Part shown: positions 46,647 to 59,705 of the stretch, piece after piece
Numbering within the stretch: the stretch's first letter is position 1
How the letters are laid out: each line of letters starts with the position of its first letter
From: Ensifer sp. Root278
Lineage (GTDB): Bacteria > Pseudomonadota > Alphaproteobacteria > Rhizobiales > Rhizobiaceae
Assembly: GCF_001429285.1 (NCBI RefSeq)
Contig: NZ_LMJJ01000044.1
Location: 150,842 to 214,841, forward strand
Direction of reading: 5' to 3'
Length of the DNA stretch: 64,000 nt
Position numbers and translations under genes: made by a program
The notes under the pieces: model-generated
Database searches by the model: none
The model's input: only the letters and a program-made list of their open reading frames with translations
Told to the model about the DNA's origin: nothing

Positions 46647-46694
46647 CTGCATGTCTCCTTAAATCGAGCTCGATTTAAAGACAAAGACATGCAG
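46647..46694. repeat. Nested inverted repeat downstream of nlpD
   Basis: An outer pair CTGCATGTCT (46647-46656) and AGACATGCAG (46685-46694) flanks a perfect 20-bp palindrome TTAAATCGAGCTCGATTTAA at 46659-46678. The 48-nt unit can form a cruciform or RNA hairpin. Its sequence is not part of any gene. Confidence 0.8.
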
Positions 46695-46706
46695 AAAATC
46701 AAAGTG

Positions 46707-46750
46707 CTACAGCGACCTTTGCGCGTCTGATAAGACGCGCGGCGCTGTAG
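46707..46750. repeat. Intergenic hairpin element, RIME-like
   Basis: An outer stem CTACAGCG (46707-46714) and CGCTGTAG (46743-46750) encloses an inner stem GCGCGTCT (46721-46728) and AGACGCGC (46733-46740) with a GATA loop. Sequences of this type recur in rhizobial intergenic regions as palindromic repeats. I recall the pattern but cannot name the exact family from sequence alone. Confidence 0.65.
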
Positions 46751-46766
46751 GAAGCGTAAGAATCAG

Positions 46767-46803
46767 ATACCGCCCGCCGGATTTCGGCGGGCGGTATTTT
46801 TTT
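46767..46803 (+). terminator. Strong Rho-independent terminator, plus strand
   Basis: A perfect 13-bp stem (ATACCGCCCGCCG at 46767-46779 and CGGCGGGCGGTAT at 46785-46797) is followed by TTTTTTT. It is oriented to stop plus-strand transcripts such as nlpD or a small RNA made in this gap. Confidence 0.92.
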
Positions 46804-52921: not shown

Positions 52922-54340
52922 TCAGGCGGACTTGCCGAGCCATGCGGCGCAATCTGCGAGCGCACGCGACGCCGTTGCCTGCTTCTTGGCAGCGGCCTTT
53001 TCCTTGCCACGGAAGCGCTTGGCGCCCTCCGGCTTGGTGATTGCTCCCGGATCGAGCGGCGGGAACAGGCCGAAATTGACGTTCATCGGCTGGAACGAAC
53101 GTTTGCCCGGCTCATCGTCGGAAACGATGTGCCCGCCGGTGATATGGTTCAGCAGCGCGCCGAAGGCGGTGGTCGCTGGCGGTGCGGCCAAAGTCGCGCC
53201 CTTGCGCTCAGCGGCGGCGAAGCGCCCGGCGAGCAGGCCGATGCTGGCGCTCTCCACGTATCCTTCGCAGCCGGTGATCTGACCGGCAAAGCGCAGGCCC
53301 GGGCGCGACTTCAGCGTCAGCGTTCGGTCGAGCAGCGTCGGCGAATTGATGTAGGTGTTGCGGTGCAGGCCGCCGAGGCGTGCAAATTCGGCATTCTCCA
53401 GGCCCGGGATCATCCGGAAGACTTCCGCCTGGGCGCCGTATTTCAGTTTCGTCTGGAAGCCGACCATGTTGTAGAGCGTGCCAAGCGCGTTGTCCTGGCG
53501 CAGCTGCACGACGGCATAGGGCTTGACCGTGGGGTTATGGGCATTGGTGAGGCCCATCGGCTTCATCGGCCCGTGACGCAGCGTCTCGCGGCCGCGTTCG
53601 GCCATGACCTCGATCGGCAGGCAGCCATCGAAATAGGGCGTACCTTCCCATTCCTTGAAGCCGGTCTTGTCGCCGGCGATCAGCGCGTCGACGAAGGCGT
53701 TGTACTGCTCCTCGGTCATCGGGCAGTTGATGTAGTCTTTGCCGGTGCCGCCGGGGCCGACCTTGTCGTAACGCGACTGGTACCAGCAGACGTCCATGTC
53801 GATCGTCTCGGTGTAGACGATCGGCGCGATGGCGTCGAAGAAAGCGAGCGCATCGGCGCCCGTTTCCGTGCGGATGGCTTCTGCAAGATCGGGTGCCGTC
53901 AAAGGGCCGGTCGCGATGACCGCGAGGTCCCATTCCCTCGGCGGTAGGCCGGTGATTTCTTCGCGCACGACCGTGATCAGCGGATGGGCCGCAATCGCAG
54001 CGCTGACGGCGTCAGAGAATCCATCGCGATCGACGGCGAGCGCGCCGCCGGCCGGAACCTGGTTGGCATCGGCGGACTTCATGATCAGCGAGCCGGCAAG
54101 GCGCATTTCCGCATGCAGAACGCCGACCGCATTGCTGGTCGCATCATCCGAGCGGAACGAGTTGGAACAGACGAGTTCGGCGAGACCGTCCGTCTTGTGC
54201 GCATCGGTGCCGCGCACGCCGCGCATCTCGTGCAGTATGACCGGGACTCCGGCCTCGGCGATCTGCCAGGCAGCCTCCGAACCGGCAAGGCCGCCGCCGA
54301 CGACATGGATGGGAGAATGGGAAGAGGTGTCTTTGCTCAT
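52922..54340 (-). CDS. trmFO: Methylenetetrahydrofolate--tRNA-(uracil-5-)-methyltransferase TrmFO
   Basis: A 472-aa FAD enzyme that makes 5-methyluridine at position 54 of tRNA with methylene-THF as carbon donor. The FAD-binding motif is [19 protein letters not shown] near residue 13. [10 protein letters not shown]-type sequence ([10 protein letters not shown] here), [19 protein letters not shown] and [16 protein letters not shown] follow the family. The length fits. It is a minus-strand single gene downstream of the DUF1127 pair. Confidence 0.95.
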
Positions 54341-54389
54341 GGGCGGCTTCCTATCACGGCTCGGCCCTTCGTTCCAATGTCAATAAACG

Positions 54390-54416
54390 AAAACGGCGCC
54401 CGGAGGGCGCCGTTTT
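54390..54416 (-). terminator. Terminator of the first DUF1127 gene
   Basis: A 12-bp stem (AAAACGGCGCCC and GGGCGCCGTTTT) has a three-nt loop, read on the minus strand, and is followed by CGTTTATT. It lies between trmFO and DUF1127. Confidence 0.85.
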
Positions 54417-54440
54417 GGAAGTCAGTTCGAACCGTTGAGA

Positions 54441-54584
54441 TTAACGGAAGGAACGGGCCGCAATGTTGCGGATATCGTAGCGGGTGATGCCGATATCACT
54501 GAGAGCGTGGTTCGACAGGTTGCCGAGCTCGCTGACGGTGCGGCGGTAGTTGATCCAGCTTTTTGCGATACGAATCGGGTTCAT
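54441..54584 (-). CDS. DUF1127 small protein, copy 1
   Basis: A 47-aa basic protein of the DUF1127 family, MNPIRIAKSWINYRRTVSEL at its start and LSDIGITRYDI near its end. The core pattern (YRRTVSELGNLSNHALSDIG) matches the family. DUF1127 proteins are short, Arg-rich RNA-associated proteins in alphaproteobacteria, some acting with small RNAs. The ATG at 54584 has GAGG about 8 nt upstream. The longer frame to 54737 has no support. It ends at a perfect terminator. Confidence 0.85.
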   Translation of the reverse strand: MNPIRIAKSWINYRRTVSELGNLSNHALSDIGITRYDIRNIAARSFR

Positions 54585-54931
54585 GACTTTTTCCTCAAGA
54601 TCGGTTTGTCGCGACAGCCATCTGTCTGCGTCGTTGAGGTTCTTATACGCTTGTCTAATTAGAAGGTGGAGTGCAAAGAAAATGCAGCTGCTATGCATTT
54701 GTGCAGTGCATCGCCGCATAGATGGGCACCGCTTCAAAAGGTGGCATCAATTAACGATTGATTAAAATGCGGATCACTACGCTCTAGTGTTTTGTTTTTC
54801 ATATGTTTTTGGAATTGGAGCGCGAGCGGTTGCAATGCGTGGCACGAGGGTGGTGCTCGCTGCTCGCCGGCGAGGTGGGCTACAGCATTTCGCACGTGCG
54901 AAAGGGCGGCGGTGACGCCAGAGCAAGAGGC
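54585..54931. other. Intergenic region upstream of DUF1127 copy 1
   Basis: About 350 nt, AT-rich at 54640-54800. It should contain the promoter of DUF1127 copy 1. No gene or sRNA hairpin of the type found further right is visible. Confidence 0.4.
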
Positions 54932-54969
54932 AAAAGAAAACGCCCCCCGGAATGAACCGGAGGGCGTTT
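54932..54969 (-). terminator. Terminator of DUF1127 copy 2
   Basis: A 13-pair stem with one mismatch (AAACGCCCCCCGG at 54938-54950 and CCGGAGGGCGTTT at 54957-54969) is followed on the minus strand by TTCTTTTG. Confidence 0.82.
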
Positions 54970-55004
54970 ACTGGAGGTCGGTCGCGCTTGAAGCGCAGCC
55001 TGAA

Positions 55005-55148
55005 TTACTTGATCGCCTGGCGAGCAACGTAGGGGATGTCGCCGCGGCCGATGCCGAGGTCGCTCAGCTCACGGTCGCTCATGCGGCCGAGTTCGTTGCA
55101 GGTCTGACGATACTTGCGCCAATTGTTGAAAGAACGTGCGAGGTTCAT
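55005..55148 (-). CDS. DUF1127 small protein, copy 2
   Basis: A 47-aa gene read on the minus strand, the same length as copy 1. It starts MNLARSFNNWRKYRQTCNEL and contains ELSDLGIGRGDI, the DUF1127 core. The stop is at 55005-55007. AAAGGA lies just upstream of the ATG at 55148. It is followed by its own terminator and preceded, on the same strand, by the two small RNA copies. In Rhodobacter a DUF1127 protein is made beside sRNAs with the same loop motif, so a functional link is likely but inferred. Confidence 0.85.
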   Translation of the reverse strand: MNLARSFNNWRKYRQTCNELGRMSDRELSDLGIGRGDIPYVARQAIK

Positions 55149-55375
55149 GATCCTATCCTTTCTAGGGTCGTGTGCCAGCGCTCATCTCTCTTGCTGGCCG
55201 TCATCTGATGGTCTGGAATATAATCGTTTTGAGCAGAAGTTACAGAGATAATGCTGCATCGCACCCATGCAGCACGTGCAAGCCTGAGCGCGGCGGACAG
55301 ACGTCGGATGGCGTTCGAAACGCATCTGCAATCAGGTTCTGATGATTGAAGCTTTCGACCCAAATCGAGGGCCGG
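55149..55375. other. Intergenic region between sRNA copy A and DUF1127 copy 2
   Basis: About 227 nt with no further gene that I can support. It should contain the promoter of DUF1127 copy 2. It separates the sRNA copy A terminator from the coding start. Confidence 0.4.
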
Positions 55376-55515
55376 AAAACAAACAACGCCCGCTGGGGGA
55401 GGAGATCCAGCGAGCGTCGCTTTGTTCTGATCGGCAACCGGGAGGAGGAGTGTCGCCGATCCAAATCGAGGGGCGCTGGGAGGAGGAGTGCGCCGCCCCG
55501 ATCGATGAGTTGAAG
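55376..55515 (-). ncRNA. Alpha-r14-type small RNA, copy A
   Basis: Three hairpins read on the minus strand, each with a CTCCTCCC-type loop. Hairpin 1 (arms 55490-55499 and 55470-55476, one bulged G) has loop ACTCCTCCTCCCA. Hairpin 2 (10-bp arms 55452-55461 and 55429-55438) has loop ACTCCTCCTCCCG. Hairpin 3 (arms 55407-55417 and 55386-55396) has loop ATCTCCTCCC and is followed by TGTTTGTTTT, a terminator. The T tract fixes the strand. The 5' end is not resolved. The pattern matches the Smr14/NfeR1 family, which is known to bind ribosome-binding sites. Confidence 0.85.
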
Positions 55516-55661
55516 ATAGTATGGAGTCGGGCGGAAGGGTAGCGCTGATCCAGAATGGCACCTATGCATCGAGTGCATGGCTGCGAGCGAATACAGAGAA
55601 AGTGTGCACGAATATTGTGCAATTGCGCAAAGTCGGAGATTTTCTTGCTGGGGGAGGGCTG

Positions 55662-55795
55662 AAAACAATAACGCCCGCTGGGGGAGGAGGTCCAGCGAGC
55701 GTCATTTGAAGTGATTGGCAACTGGGAGGAGGAGTGTTGCCAATCTGATCGGAGGAGCGTTGGGAGGAGGAGTACGCTCGACCGAATTCTCTCGG
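55662..55795 (-). ncRNA. Alpha-r14-type small RNA, copy B
   Basis: A second copy of the same design, 285 nt upstream on the minus strand. Hairpin 1 (GAGCGT and ACGCTC, 55774-55779 and 55755-55760) has loop ACTCCTCCTCCCA. Hairpin 2 (GATTGGCAAC and GTTGCCAATC, 55736-55745 and 55713-55722) has loop ACTCCTCCTCCCA. Hairpin 3 (55692-55702 and 55671-55681, one G-U pair) has loop ACCTCCTCCC and ends in TATTGTTTT. The stems differ from copy A but keep pairing, which supports conserved structure. The 5' end is approximate. Confidence 0.85.
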
Positions 55796-55799
55796 GTTT

Positions 55800-56086
55800 T
55801 GCCCGGGCCTTTCTCAGTAAACTGAGGCGGTTGGCCGCTTCCGCCGGCGACCGTCTGGCTTCATGCCGTCGTTCGCCTTTGATGATTTGAATATAGGGGC
55901 TTTAAATCGATTTGTGCAGTGCAATATCCGCATGGAAGATATGCGCATCGCGCAAGCCGTTCATCAGTCTCTTTCGGCTCGGGGCCTCAGTCGCGACAGA
56001 GCGATTGTGTTTCCGCGCCGATACGTGGTTAGCTGGTGACGCAACGGGATCATTTCAAGCATTGGATTCTTAGGGCTGGGGGCAGG
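55800..56086. other. Intergenic region upstream of sRNA copy B and DUF2157 gene
   Basis: About 285 nt. It should hold the sRNA copy B promoter on the minus strand and the promoter of the DUF2157 gene on the plus strand. A CTATAT box is readable on the minus strand at 55891-55896, but its -35 match is poor and it lies about 90 nt from the sRNA. No gene is seen. Confidence 0.35.
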
Positions 56087-57196
56087 ATGTATCGCGCGCG
56101 TCTCGAGCGAGACTTCAAACACTGGATCGACAAGGGGCTGCTGCAGGAAGATGCCGCGCGCGCCATGCTTGCCGAGTATGACGGACGCGAGTCGACGTTC
56201 CGGGCAGGGCGCGTCCTGCTTATGCTGGCGGCCCTTCTGTTATCCGCATCGATCCTGTTGCTTGTTGCCGCCAATTGGGAGGAACTGCCGCGCCTCGCGC
56301 GCGTCGCCGGCATCGTCGCCTTGATCTGGGGCTTCCACTTCGCCGCTGCCTGGCTGATCCAGAATGGCAGGACGACATTTGCCGCCGCGGCGCTGGTTCT
56401 GGGCGCGGCGGCCTTTGGCGGCGGCATCGCGCTCATCGGGCAGATGTATCATTTGTCGGGCGATGCGGCGGATGCAGCGCTGCTCTGGTTCGTTGGCGCC
56501 TGCCTTTCGGCGCTCGCGTTTCGCTCTGCAGCGATGGCAACGGCCGCTGGCGGGCTCGCTTGGTTCTATTTCGGTACCATGTTGACGGAAAATGGTTTCA
56601 GCACGGCTTCTGACTGGCACTTGTGGTCCGTGCCGGTTCTGGCCGTGATCGTCGTTCTTCTGGTCCGCTTCACGGAGGCGGGCAGGGCCCGGCATCTGGC
56701 CTATCTGCTCGTCCTTTCCTGGCTCGGCTGGCTTTATCTGGATAGTCCGTCACTTGCTTTCGCGGTCGGCCTCGCAGTCCTCGGCCTTGCGGCCTTTCTG
56801 GCGGCGACCCTGCCGGGTTCGCCCGTGCGCCAACTTGCGCTCGAGGCGGGTTCAGCGCCCGCTTTCTATTCCTTCGCGCTCGCCCTGCTTGGTTTCACCG
56901 GACTTCAATACGAGGCGGTTGGGGTGACGACGGAGGTCGCGACCGGAACAGGCACGCTGTTGGTTGCGCTCCTGGGCATTGCGCTTGCCGGTGCGCAGAA
57001 CGGGGCGGTGCGTTATCTCGGTTACATCGCCTTTGCCGGCGAGCTTCTCTATCTCGCCTTCGAAACCTTGGGATCGATGCTTGGCACATCGGGCTTCTTC
57101 CTGATTTCGGGCCTGGTCGTCGCGTGCATCGCCTGGCTGGTCATTCGGATCGAGGGGCATATGGCGCGAACGCGCCAGGCGGAGGTTTCTCAATGA
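56087..57196 (+). CDS. DUF2157 multi-pass membrane protein
   Basis: A 369-aa protein with a short cytosolic N-terminus (MYRARLERDFKHWIDKGLL) followed by about ten hydrophobic segments. The N-terminal 60 residues and GGIALIGQMYHLSGDAADA match the DUF2157 family. A GTG at 56036, 17 codons earlier, is also open, but it repeats a FKHWI motif outside the family start. AGG precedes ATG 56087 closely. It overlaps its downstream partner by 4 nt (ATGA). Function is unknown; such pairs are thought to be envelope proteins. Confidence 0.82.
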   Translation: MYRARLERDFKHWIDKGLLQEDAARAMLAEYDGRESTFRAGRVLLMLAALLLSASILLLVAANWEELPRLARVAGIVALIWGFHFAAAWLIQNGRTTFAAAALVLGAAAFGGGIALIGQMYHLSGDAADAALLWFVGACLSALAFRSAAMATAAGGLAWFYFGTMLTENGFSTASDWHLWSVPVLAVIVVLLVRFTEAGRARHLAYLLVLSWLGWLYLDSPSLAFAVGLAVLGLAAFLAATLPGSPVRQLALEAGSAPAFYSFALALLGFTGLQYEAVGVTTEVATGTGTLLVALLGIALAGAQNGAVRYLGYIAFAGELLYLAFETLGSMLGTSGFFLISGLVVACIAWLVIRIEGHMARTRQAEVSQ

Positions 57197-57963: not shown

Positions 57964-58048
<85 letters not shown>

Positions 58049-58226
58049 GACAGCGATCGCGCCTAAAGTCCGGATTCTGCGAGGATGAAGGGGGCTGGAG
58101 TGCCATTTTGCTTGCAAAACGGTTGCAGAACTGCGTAAAGCCACTCCCGGCAAATGGATCGGCTCACGTGCTCGCCAGACCTTTCGAAGGGGAAGAGCAC
58201 AGTCAACGTGAAATGAAGGTTTGAAC

Positions 58227-59705
58227 ATGCAGGTTATCGAAACGCTCGCTCAAGGGCTGAAGCGCGAACTCAAGGTCGTTATCCCGGCCAAGGACATGGA
58301 AGCTCGGATGAACGAGCGCCTGGCCGAAGTGAAGGACCGTGTGAAGATCAACGGCTTCCGTCCGGGCAAGGTGCCGGTTGCGCATCTGAAGAAGGTCTAT
58401 GGCAAGTCGATCATGGCCGACCTCGTCAATGAGATCGTCCGCGAGAAGCCGACCGAGATCCTGTCGGGCCGCGGCGAGAAGTCGGCGACCCAGCCGGAAG
58501 TCGCGATGACCGAGGACGAGGCCGAAGCCGACAAGATCCTCAATGCGGAAGCTGACCTCGAGTTCACCGTTGCCTACGAAATCATCCCGGCGATCGAACT
58601 CAAGGACGTGAGCGGCATCAAGGTGACCCGCGAAGTCGTCGAGATCGCTGACGAAGAAGTCAACGAGCAGATCCTGAAGATCGCCGAAAGCGCCCGCAGC
58701 TACGAATCGAAGAAGGGCAAGGCCGCCAACGGCGACCGCGTCACGATCGATTACCTCGGCAAGGTCGACGGCGTAGCCTTCGACGGCGGCAAGGACGAAG
58801 ACGCCGAGCTGGTTCTCGGCTCCAACCGCTTCATCCCGGGCTTCGAAGAGCAACTCGTTGGCCTGAAGGCCGGCGACGAAAAGACCATCACTGTCAACTT
58901 CCCGGCTGACTACCCGGCCGCAAACCTCGCCGGCAAGGAAGCGACCTTCGACATCACCGTCAAGGACGTCGCTGCCGCCCAGGACATCGAAATCAACGAC
59001 GAACTGGCCACCAAGCTCGGCCTCGAATCGGCTGACAAGCTGAAGGAAATCGTCCGCGGCCAGATCGAAAGCCAGTACGGCAACCTGACCCGTCAGAAGG
59101 TCAAGCGTCAGATCCTCGACCAGCTCGACGAACTCTACCAGTTCGAAACGCCGGAGCGCCTCGTCGAAGCCGAATTCGAAAACATCTGGCGCCAGATCAA
59201 CACCGACCTGCAGCAGGCCGGCAAGACCTTCGCTGACGAAGAAACCACCGAAGAAGAAGCCCGCGCCGAATACCGCAAGCTCGCCGAGCGTCGCGTTCGC
59301 CTCGGCCTGGTTCTTTCGGAAATCGGCGAAAAGGCCGGCGTCCAGGTCAGCGACGACGAACTGCAGCGTTCGCTGTTCGAACAGCTCCGCCAGTTCCCGG
59401 GCCAGGAAAAGCAGATCCTCGACTACTTCAAGAACACCCCCGGTGCTGCCGCTTCGCTGCGCGCTCCGCTGTTCGAAGAAAAGGTCGTCGACCACCTGCT
59501 CGGCGAAATCTCGGTAACCGACAAGACGGTTTCCAAGGAAGAGCTGACGGCTGACGACGAAGAGGGCGAAGGCAAGGCTGCCAAGAAGGCTCCGGCCAAG
59601 AAGAAGGCCGCTGCCAAGGCTGAAGCCGCCGAAGGCGAAGAAGCCGCCGCTCCGAAGAAGAAGGCTCCGGCCAAGAAGAAGGCCGCTGACGACAGCGCCG
59701 AGTAA
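58227..59705 (+). CDS. tig: Trigger factor
   Basis: A 492-aa ribosome-bound chaperone and peptidyl-prolyl isomerase. The ribosome-binding loop GFRPGKVP is at residues 43-50. The FKBP domain (about 150-235) includes [20 protein letters not shown], and the helical C-terminal chaperone domain follows. The last 45 residues are a Lys/Ala/Glu tail ([14 protein letters not shown] and [11 protein letters not shown]), usual in rhizobia. The ATG at 58227 has GAAGG about 8 nt upstream; TTG 58221 is an alternative. Confidence 0.96.

Follow-up and report, generated by a model that had tools for sequence, protein, structure and literature searches.

The 64-kb window, that is the whole 64,000-nucleotide stretch of Ensifer sp. 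Root278 DNA that was analysed, carries on its minus strand two genes for small RNAs (sRNAs) of the alpha-r14 (ar14) family, a known family at what is very probably a known locus, to which some new detail on the differences between the copies can be added. Taken as a whole, the evidence is with good confidence best explained by a trans-acting alpha-r14 pair equivalent to SmelC398 and SmelC397 of Sinorhizobium meliloti, with LsrB probably acting on both copies, NtrC on copy 2 only and a predicted leader on copy 1 (Table 1). As the pair very probably is SmelC398/SmelC397, which is already on record, the family, the mechanism and the tandem layout are known.

Table 1. Features of the ar14 locus in the window (positions of the window; aSD, anti-Shine-Dalgarno)
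Feature	Position	Strand	Evidence or remark
ar14 sRNA copy 1	55666..55790	-	RF02344 114.9 bits, E 1.5e-20; fold z -8.4; three aSD hairpins
aSD loop core 1, copy 1	55762..55769	-	motif search
aSD loop core 2, copy 1	55724..55731	-	motif search
aSD loop core 3, copy 1	55682..55689	-	motif search
Predicted structured 5' leader of copy 1, 93 nt	55791..55883	-	start placed 71 nt from LsrB-type site, as in copy 2
-10 box CTATAT of copy 1	55891..55896	-	promoter motif comparison
GCACTGCACAAA, conserved element near -39 of copy 1	55911..55922	-	two matches at corresponding distances, 16/16 genus loci
LsrB-type site of copy 1, TGCG-N6-GCAT	55941..55954	-	one letter off TGCA-N6-GCAT
ar14 sRNA copy 2 (NfeR1-type)	55381..55506	-	RF02344 102.4 bits, E 9e-18; fold z -5.5
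aSD loop core 1, copy 2	55478..55485	-	motif search
aSD loop core 2, copy 2	55440..55447	-	motif search
aSD loop core 3, copy 2	55397..55404	-	motif search
-10 box CTATCT of copy 2	55514..55519	-	promoter motif comparison
LsrB-type site of copy 2	55555..55577	-	TGCA-N6-GCAT (55577-55564) overlapping GCAT-N3-TG-N3-T (55567-55555)
NtrC-type site of copy 2, TGC-N11-GCA, at -115	55605..55621	-	same position in 16/16 genus genomes
DUF1127 gene 1, 47 aa	55005..55148	-	PF06568 61 bits; terminator-like 54969-54938
LsrB-type site of DUF1127 gene 1	55258..55280	-	TGCA-N6-GCAT 55280-55267, GCAT-N3-TG-N3-T 55270-55258
DUF1127 gene 2, 47 aa	54441..54584	-	PF06568 52.4 bits; terminator-like 54416-54390; GCACTGCACAAA upstream at 54709-54698
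trmFO, syntenic anchor gene	52922..54340	-	NF003739 683.5 bits

Family membership and the S. meliloti locus

In an Rfam search of the window both blocks pass the gathering cut-off of the RF02344 covariance model (58.8 bits) by a wide margin. The assignment to the alpha-r14/NfeR1 family, proposed in an earlier reading made from the sequence only, is thus borne out, and it gains further from the likeness of the locus to the SmrC14/NfeR1 region of S. meliloti in the neighbouring gene (tig), the strand, the pairing, the spacing and the promoter sites. The 7.1-Mb assembly holds five ar14 matches, four of them above the cut-off, with further copies at L002 and L004 and one at L005. The last of these (L005:1501-1603) scores 47.2 bits, which is below the cut-off, and appears by eye to be a shortened form with two hairpins.

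The S. meliloti RNA C14/SmrC14 was located between SMc02051 and tig (PMC2780559). Two sRNAs were predicted there in 2008, sm7 (which is smrC14) and sm7', the latter then awaiting detection (PMC2573895), and the pair was listed from sequencing in 2010, the table giving SmelC397 at 1667491-1667614 (minus strand, 124 nt) and SmelC398 at 1667766-1667982 (minus strand, 217 nt; PMC2873474). SmelC397 has since been renamed NfeR1 (PMC7143759). Judging by these printed positions and by the motifs, copy 1 would very probably be the equivalent of SmelC398 and copy 2 that of SmelC397/NfeR1: like copy 1, SmelC398 is the second sRNA immediately upstream of its partner on the same strand, with a listed length of 217 nt against a predicted 218 nt, and the two RNAs are 151 nt apart in S. 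meliloti and 159 nt apart in the window. In the passages on SmelC398 in PMC2573895 and PMC2873474 there is no mention of a leader or of membership in ar14.

The likeness to NfeR1 (SmrC14, SmelC397) extends to three hairpins with CCUCCUCCC loops, the length, promoter sites of the LsrB and NtrC types and tig on the same side. The likely direct counterpart is copy 2, as copy 1 differs in being without an NtrC-type site and in having a long predicted leader. In the window tig lies at 58221-59705, and whereas it is the direct neighbour of smrC14 in S. meliloti, here a DUF2157 gene, another open reading frame (ORF) and a tRNA gene intervene; the tRNA gene, which separates the DUF2157 region from tig, is at 57964-58045 (plus strand, Rfam 55.7 bits). 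Of the six S. meliloti copies only one was reliably detected by Northern blot, according to a review (PMC7143759), so copy 1 may be weakly expressed.

Hairpins, loops and 3' ends

The reading from sequence had each minus-strand block fold into three hairpins that display aSD motifs in their loops, and this is what the folds of the exact ar14 stretches give (z values in Table 1), with the motif unpaired in each loop and with variable stems, as is expected of alpha-r14 RNAs. There are seven matches to CTCCTCCC in the 64-kb window, with 2.13 expected for the whole window on both strands, and six of the seven fall on the minus strand of the 420-nt region, three per block. Two details of that reading need qualification. 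All six aSD motifs do sit in loops, yet the loop sequence is not uniform, with ACCTCCTCCC and ATCTCCTCCC in the third loops, and T tracts are found at the end of each block but are interrupted (TTATTGTTTT, TTGTTTGTTTT). The third hairpin of copy 1 is taken as its terminator; it is absent from a simple terminator scan, the loop limit of which is 8. Between copy 1 and copy 2 the loops are nearly identical.

That the stems differ and still pair is well supported by two sets of sequences. The first consists of 26 chosen copies from the trmFO locus, set on the fold of copy 1, where 23 of the 35 pairs have a two-sided change against a mean of 12.0 in shuffled alignments, and none of 500 shuffles was as high. 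In this set 93.6% of cells are paired, falling to at most 51.7% when the partners are slid, and the first helix is the loosest with 81.2% of cells paired. The second set compares 25 more varied copies (four from the source genome and 21 chosen from 29 new loci) and has at least one two-sided change in 22 of 24 consensus pairs, the invariant columns being mostly in loops. The stems therefore co-vary around unchanged CCTCCTCCC loops. It could be supposed that the blocks are non-functional repeats or terminators that are C-rich by chance, and a weak hit of the ar14 model elsewhere in the window (46688-46803, plus strand, 26 bits) does fall on such a structure, two successive hairpins without an aSD motif, the second strongly terminator-like, and was rejected as a copy. 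For the two blocks themselves this explanation has almost no probability, given the compensatory changes, the conservation across the genus and more widely, and the published transcripts of the S. meliloti equivalents.

Promoters of the two copies

For the nfeR1 promoter of S. meliloti, binding and reporter data show activation by LsrB, the site of which is TGCA-N6-GCAT at -72 to -60, and repression by NtrC, the site of which is TGC-N11-GCA at -116 to -101 (PMC10746234). Copy 2 of the window has this published signature, its LsrB-type and NtrC-type sites lying at -71 and -115 from the ar14 start, whilst copy 1 is without a match to the NtrC type. Across the 16 genus (Sinorhizobium/Ensifer) genomes searched, TGCA-N6-GCAT is found at -71 of copy 2 in only nine, but GCAT-N3-TG-N3-T, an LsrB-type consensus (PMC8844928, PMC7486931), is at -61 in all 16.

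The sites are patchier in seven named tandem loci (L015-L018, L020, L030 and L036, some species of which may also be in the genus set). Here the NtrC-type site is found at -114 to -116 of copy 2 in four (L015-L018) and was not found before copy 2 in L020 and L036; it also occurs outside Sinorhizobium/Ensifer, at -115 in L018 and at -125 in L030. Five of the seven have GCAT-N3-TG-N3-T at -61 or -62 of copy 2. As TGC-N11-GCA is common in the window (37 matches, 28.7 expected), it is informative only through its fixed position, and the genomes compared, 16 in number, are related. For the LsrB-type sites too the weight is carried by position rather than by single matches, which mean little for GCAT-N3-TG-N3-T with 10 in the window and 6.9 expected; TGCA-N6-GCAT has eight with 2.6 expected, a number reached by one of 100 shuffles.

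Before copy 1 the site takes the form TGC-N7-GCAT in 16 of 16 genus genomes, with the TGCG variant in 15. The distance from it to a CTATA[T/C] -10 box is 58 nt in 15 of the 16, the remaining genome (G161) having no CTATA[T/C] match before copy 1, and the same 58 nt separates the LsrB-type site from the -10 box of copy 2 in the window. Both elements of copy 1 sit some 93 nt further upstream than those of copy 2. TGC-N7-GCAT is also before copy 1 in five of the seven named tandem loci, at -164 to -206, and TGC-N11-GCA is before copy 1 in none of the seven, nor within 260 nt upstream of it in any of the 16 genus genomes. A further element, GCACTGCACAAA, occurs only twice in the window, both times on the minus strand, before copy 1 and before DUF1127 gene 2 (Table 1); the same regulator may have a second point of contact there.

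The predicted leader of copy 1

On the assumption that the LsrB-type site is equally far from the transcript start in both copies, and that copy 2 starts where its Rfam match does, transcription of copy 1 would begin at 55883 and run for 218 nt to the end of the Rfam match. Copy 1 is thus probably transcribed as an RNA of about 218 nt with a folded leader, a prediction from the promoter evidence that departs from the 110-130 nt first expected of it.

Folding of the leader is suggested by the 80-95-nt leaders of the 16 related genus genomes, on a structure derived from the same alignment. Two-sided changes occur in six of 22 pairs and in 26 cells, with 99.1% of cells paired and at best 46.4% when the partners are slid; six pairs were reached by three of 500 shuffles and 26 cells by none, while one measure, further pair types, falls below the shuffles. 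A model of the leader finds one strong place in the genome, that of copy 1 (111.1 bits), the next match being at 19.2 bits (E 0.31). In 28 of 80 trmFO loci that were searched, L016, L015 and L017 were found at E <= 2.4e-5, weak matches lie at the expected place in L036, L030, L018 and L059 (E 0.012-0.49), and five similarly weak matches lie at other places (E 0.12-0.86). The leader is therefore clear within Sinorhizobium/Ensifer and only suggestive outside. It has no Rfam match up to E = 1. A short peptide encoded in the leader was considered and rejected; there is an ATG with a 16-codon frame by eye, but GGCATGAAGCC is in only six of the 16 genus leaders. In the literature covered by the searches, no description was found of the copy 1 leader or of the differing promoter make-up.

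Spread and age of the pair

An ar14 match at E <= 0.001 is found in 146 of 151 family genomes, and above the cut-off in 137 of 151. The tandem pair is in all 16 searched genus genomes with start-to-start offsets of 282-287. A tree of 26 chosen sequences has a branch, supported at 98/98, that separates the 11 copy 2 sequences from 12 copy 1 sequences and three single-copy Rhizobium sequences; only three of the 23 inner branches of this tree are well supported. From this branch the copies appear to be old paralogs, the pair predating the divergence of Ensifer, Sinorhizobium, Shinella, Mycoplana and Rhizobium sp. 32-5/1. The three single-copy Rhizobium loci in the tree would be of the copy 1 type.

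It might be argued that the pair is a matter of dosage only, with the copies making functionally the same RNA, the leader of copy 1 being processed off and the difference in promoters having no effect. The nearly identical loops would fit this, as would the variation in copy number among relatives, from one to six per locus. Such a reading is rather unlikely, however, as the copies have been kept distinct across several genera (the 98/98 branch), the leader of copy 1 co-varies, and all 16 genus genomes have an NtrC-type site at -115 of copy 2 but none has one before copy 1, a split that is repeated in the seven named loci (four for copy 2 at -114 to -116, none for copy 1).

Gene order on the trmFO side

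Downstream of the two RNAs in the window lie two DUF1127 genes and then trmFO; the best tblastn segments of its protein were from Ensifer adhaerens Lc04 (95% identity) and two Sinorhizobium records (92% and 91%). Relatives were compared in the region within 7 kb 5' of trmFO, using the best 80 of at least 591 loci and counting ar14 matches of at least 40 bits, a threshold which drops 11 of 83 locus hits and leaves out four loci with only weaker hits (L060, L087, L089 and L092). A DUF1127 gene is in 69 of the best 80 loci and ar14 in 45, of which 20 have two or more copies. Within these 45 the ar14 genes come first in 20, DUF1127 comes first in 23 and no DUF1127 gene was found in two. The ar14-first records are in 18 of 20 cases Rhizobiaceae, placed by genus name, the other two being recorded as Rhizobiales, whilst the DUF1127-first loci include Mesorhizobium, Phyllobacterium, Brucella, Aminobacter, Aurantimonas and Oricola. 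In 21 of the 23 DUF1127-first loci ar14 starts within 14 nt of the DUF1127 stop, the others being at 43 and 136 nt. DUF1127 and ar14 alternate in L050 and L061, the first ar14 of L050 being a 30-bit hit.

The longest array among the best 80 loci is that of Aurantimonas sp. 22II-16-19i (L051:9079-9894), where a single DUF1127 gene is followed by six consecutive ar14-like copies; these score 43-46 bits on an ar14 model built for this analysis and none is above the Rfam cut-off. Two ar14-first loci have weak hits directly behind their first DUF1127 gene (L019:8861-8975, 36.7 bits, E 2.6e-7; L023:9418-9521, 31.2 bits, E 8.5e-6), which by eye are a short hairpin with a CTCCTCCC or TTCCTCCC loop and then a terminator, and these shrunken aSD elements are perhaps remnants of a DUF1127-ar14 order. 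A Stappia record (L084:8896-9084) has an Rfam ar9 sRNA upstream of trmFO (49.8 bits, cut-off 45), and no ar14 was found there.

The neighbouring DUF1127 genes could also mean that the ar14 RNAs are cut from one precursor shared with them, in the manner of the ccaF1-CcsR1-4 operon, and the 23 DUF1127-first loci with their short distances are in keeping with that. For the window it is a quite improbable explanation, since the order is reversed, the Rfam CcsR1 cut-off is missed, and copy 1, copy 2 and DUF1127 gene 1 are each preceded by their own LsrB-type site and conserved -10-like element. For DUF1127 gene 1, TGCA-N6-GCAT lies 130-133 nt before the start in all 15 genus genomes where the start was located (G157 is outside this count, its start not being located by the exact search string), and 40 of 69 loci have GCAT-N3-TG-N3-T in the 220 nt upstream of the first DUF1127 gene, compared with 87 of 6145 background windows. 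In Agrobacterium LsrB/VtlR activates the small-protein gene atu1667 (PMC7486931), which would correspond to DUF1127 gene 1 of the window.

Proposed function

Each RNA would present three CCUCCUCCC-type loops on stems, and by analogy with what is published for NfeR1, a loop would pair with a GGAGG-type ribosome-binding site and so stop translation of the mRNA. As the LsrB-type site is at an equal distance from the -10 box in both promoters, the redox-responsive LsrB probably activates both copies, and as the NtrC-type site is on copy 2 only, repression by NtrC is expected for that copy and not for copy 1. The RNA made from copy 1 should be about 218 nt long, its folded 93-nt leader followed by three aSD hairpins. 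The sequence-only reading had allowed for dosage or for different targets of the tandem copies; because the loops are nearly identical, dosage with separate regulation is the likelier of the two and different targets the weaker.

The three redundant aSD motifs of NfeR1 pair with translation starts including that of ntrB, independently of Hfq (PMC7143759, PMC10746234). The genome has an ntrC gene (697.6 bits), and the ntrB start gives crude duplex energies of -8.1 and -10.5 kcal/mol with two of the loops. These values are unremarkable beside those of 89 ORF starts, many of the ORFs being probably spurious, which average -5.7 (sd 3.7) with the first loop only; the check is too crude to support or oppose targeting.

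A wider reading can be offered tentatively, as one that is less likely than not to be right. The association of DUF1127 genes with aSD RNAs has earlier been named CIN1 (PMC10253847), and the locus could be a split-up CIN1 module run by LsrB, in which two aSD sRNAs have different second inputs (NtrC for copy 2; for copy 1, free of NtrC, a new folded leader) and stand beside two DUF1127 proteins that, like CcaF1, might bind or mature the RNAs. An ancestral DUF1127-ar14 transcript, still present in Mesorhizobium and Aurantimonas and leaving shrunken aSD elements in two Rhizobium-type loci, would then have been broken into separately controlled genes in Rhizobiaceae.

What matters for work on NfeR1 is that it has a neighbour that is seemingly conserved across the genus and has promoter logic of its own as well as a leader that co-varies, and which could therefore compensate for or oppose NfeR1 in knock-outs that address nodulation or nitrogen control. 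The locus on the side of trmFO, common to both, also links the rhizobial ar14 genes to ccaF1-CcsR of Rhodobacter, with the gene order changing between families.

Comparison with known systems

Another tandem pair with aSD motifs is AbcR/suhB, and the question arises whether the RNAs of the window might be of this type in place of ar14. The best RF00519 match in 54300-56100, and the sole one there, has only 27 bits (cut-off 41) and is at a DUF1127 terminator, and the tandem suhB/abcR-type pair of the genome is on another contig adjoining a LysR-family gene (its first 110 residues match HTH_1). By its place this gene is a candidate for lsrB. Given these searches an AbcR/suhB identity deserves next to no weight, even though AbcR1/AbcR2 (alpha-r15, RF00519) are likewise tandem, carry aSD motifs and have a link to LsrB (PMC7143759, PMC8844928). 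They differ in Rfam family and locus, and they bind Hfq whereas NfeR1 is reported to be Hfq-independent. The alpha-r14 assignment stands, and other aSD RNAs of S. meliloti, the family models SmelA075 and SmelA099 with three and four hairpins and CCUCCUCCC loops, are at other loci (PMC3927594).

The likeness to the CcsR/cuckoo RNAs that the sequence-only reading had pointed out is real but is a likeness only. Copy 1 scores 31.1 bits (E 3.3e-5) and the other copy 21.5 bits on Rfam CcsR1 (RF02791) against a cut-off of 65.3, so that copy 1 is a relative and not a member. CcsR1-4/cuckoo with ccaF1 in Rhodobacter sphaeroides shares with the window the CCUCCUCCC loops, the repeated copies and a neighbouring DUF1127 gene, but two stem loops are reported for the Rhodobacter RNA (PMC3927594) where the ar14 copies have three hairpins. 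In ccaF1-CcsR1-4 the DUF1127 gene comes first on a single precursor (PMC10253847), whereas in the window, which has the DUF1127 genes beside the RNAs as in CIN1, the ar14 genes come first and DUF1127 gene 1 has a promoter-like region of its own. It is the DUF1127-first ar14 loci, those of Mesorhizobium, Brucella, Aurantimonas and others, that share the order of ccaF1-CcsR1-4.
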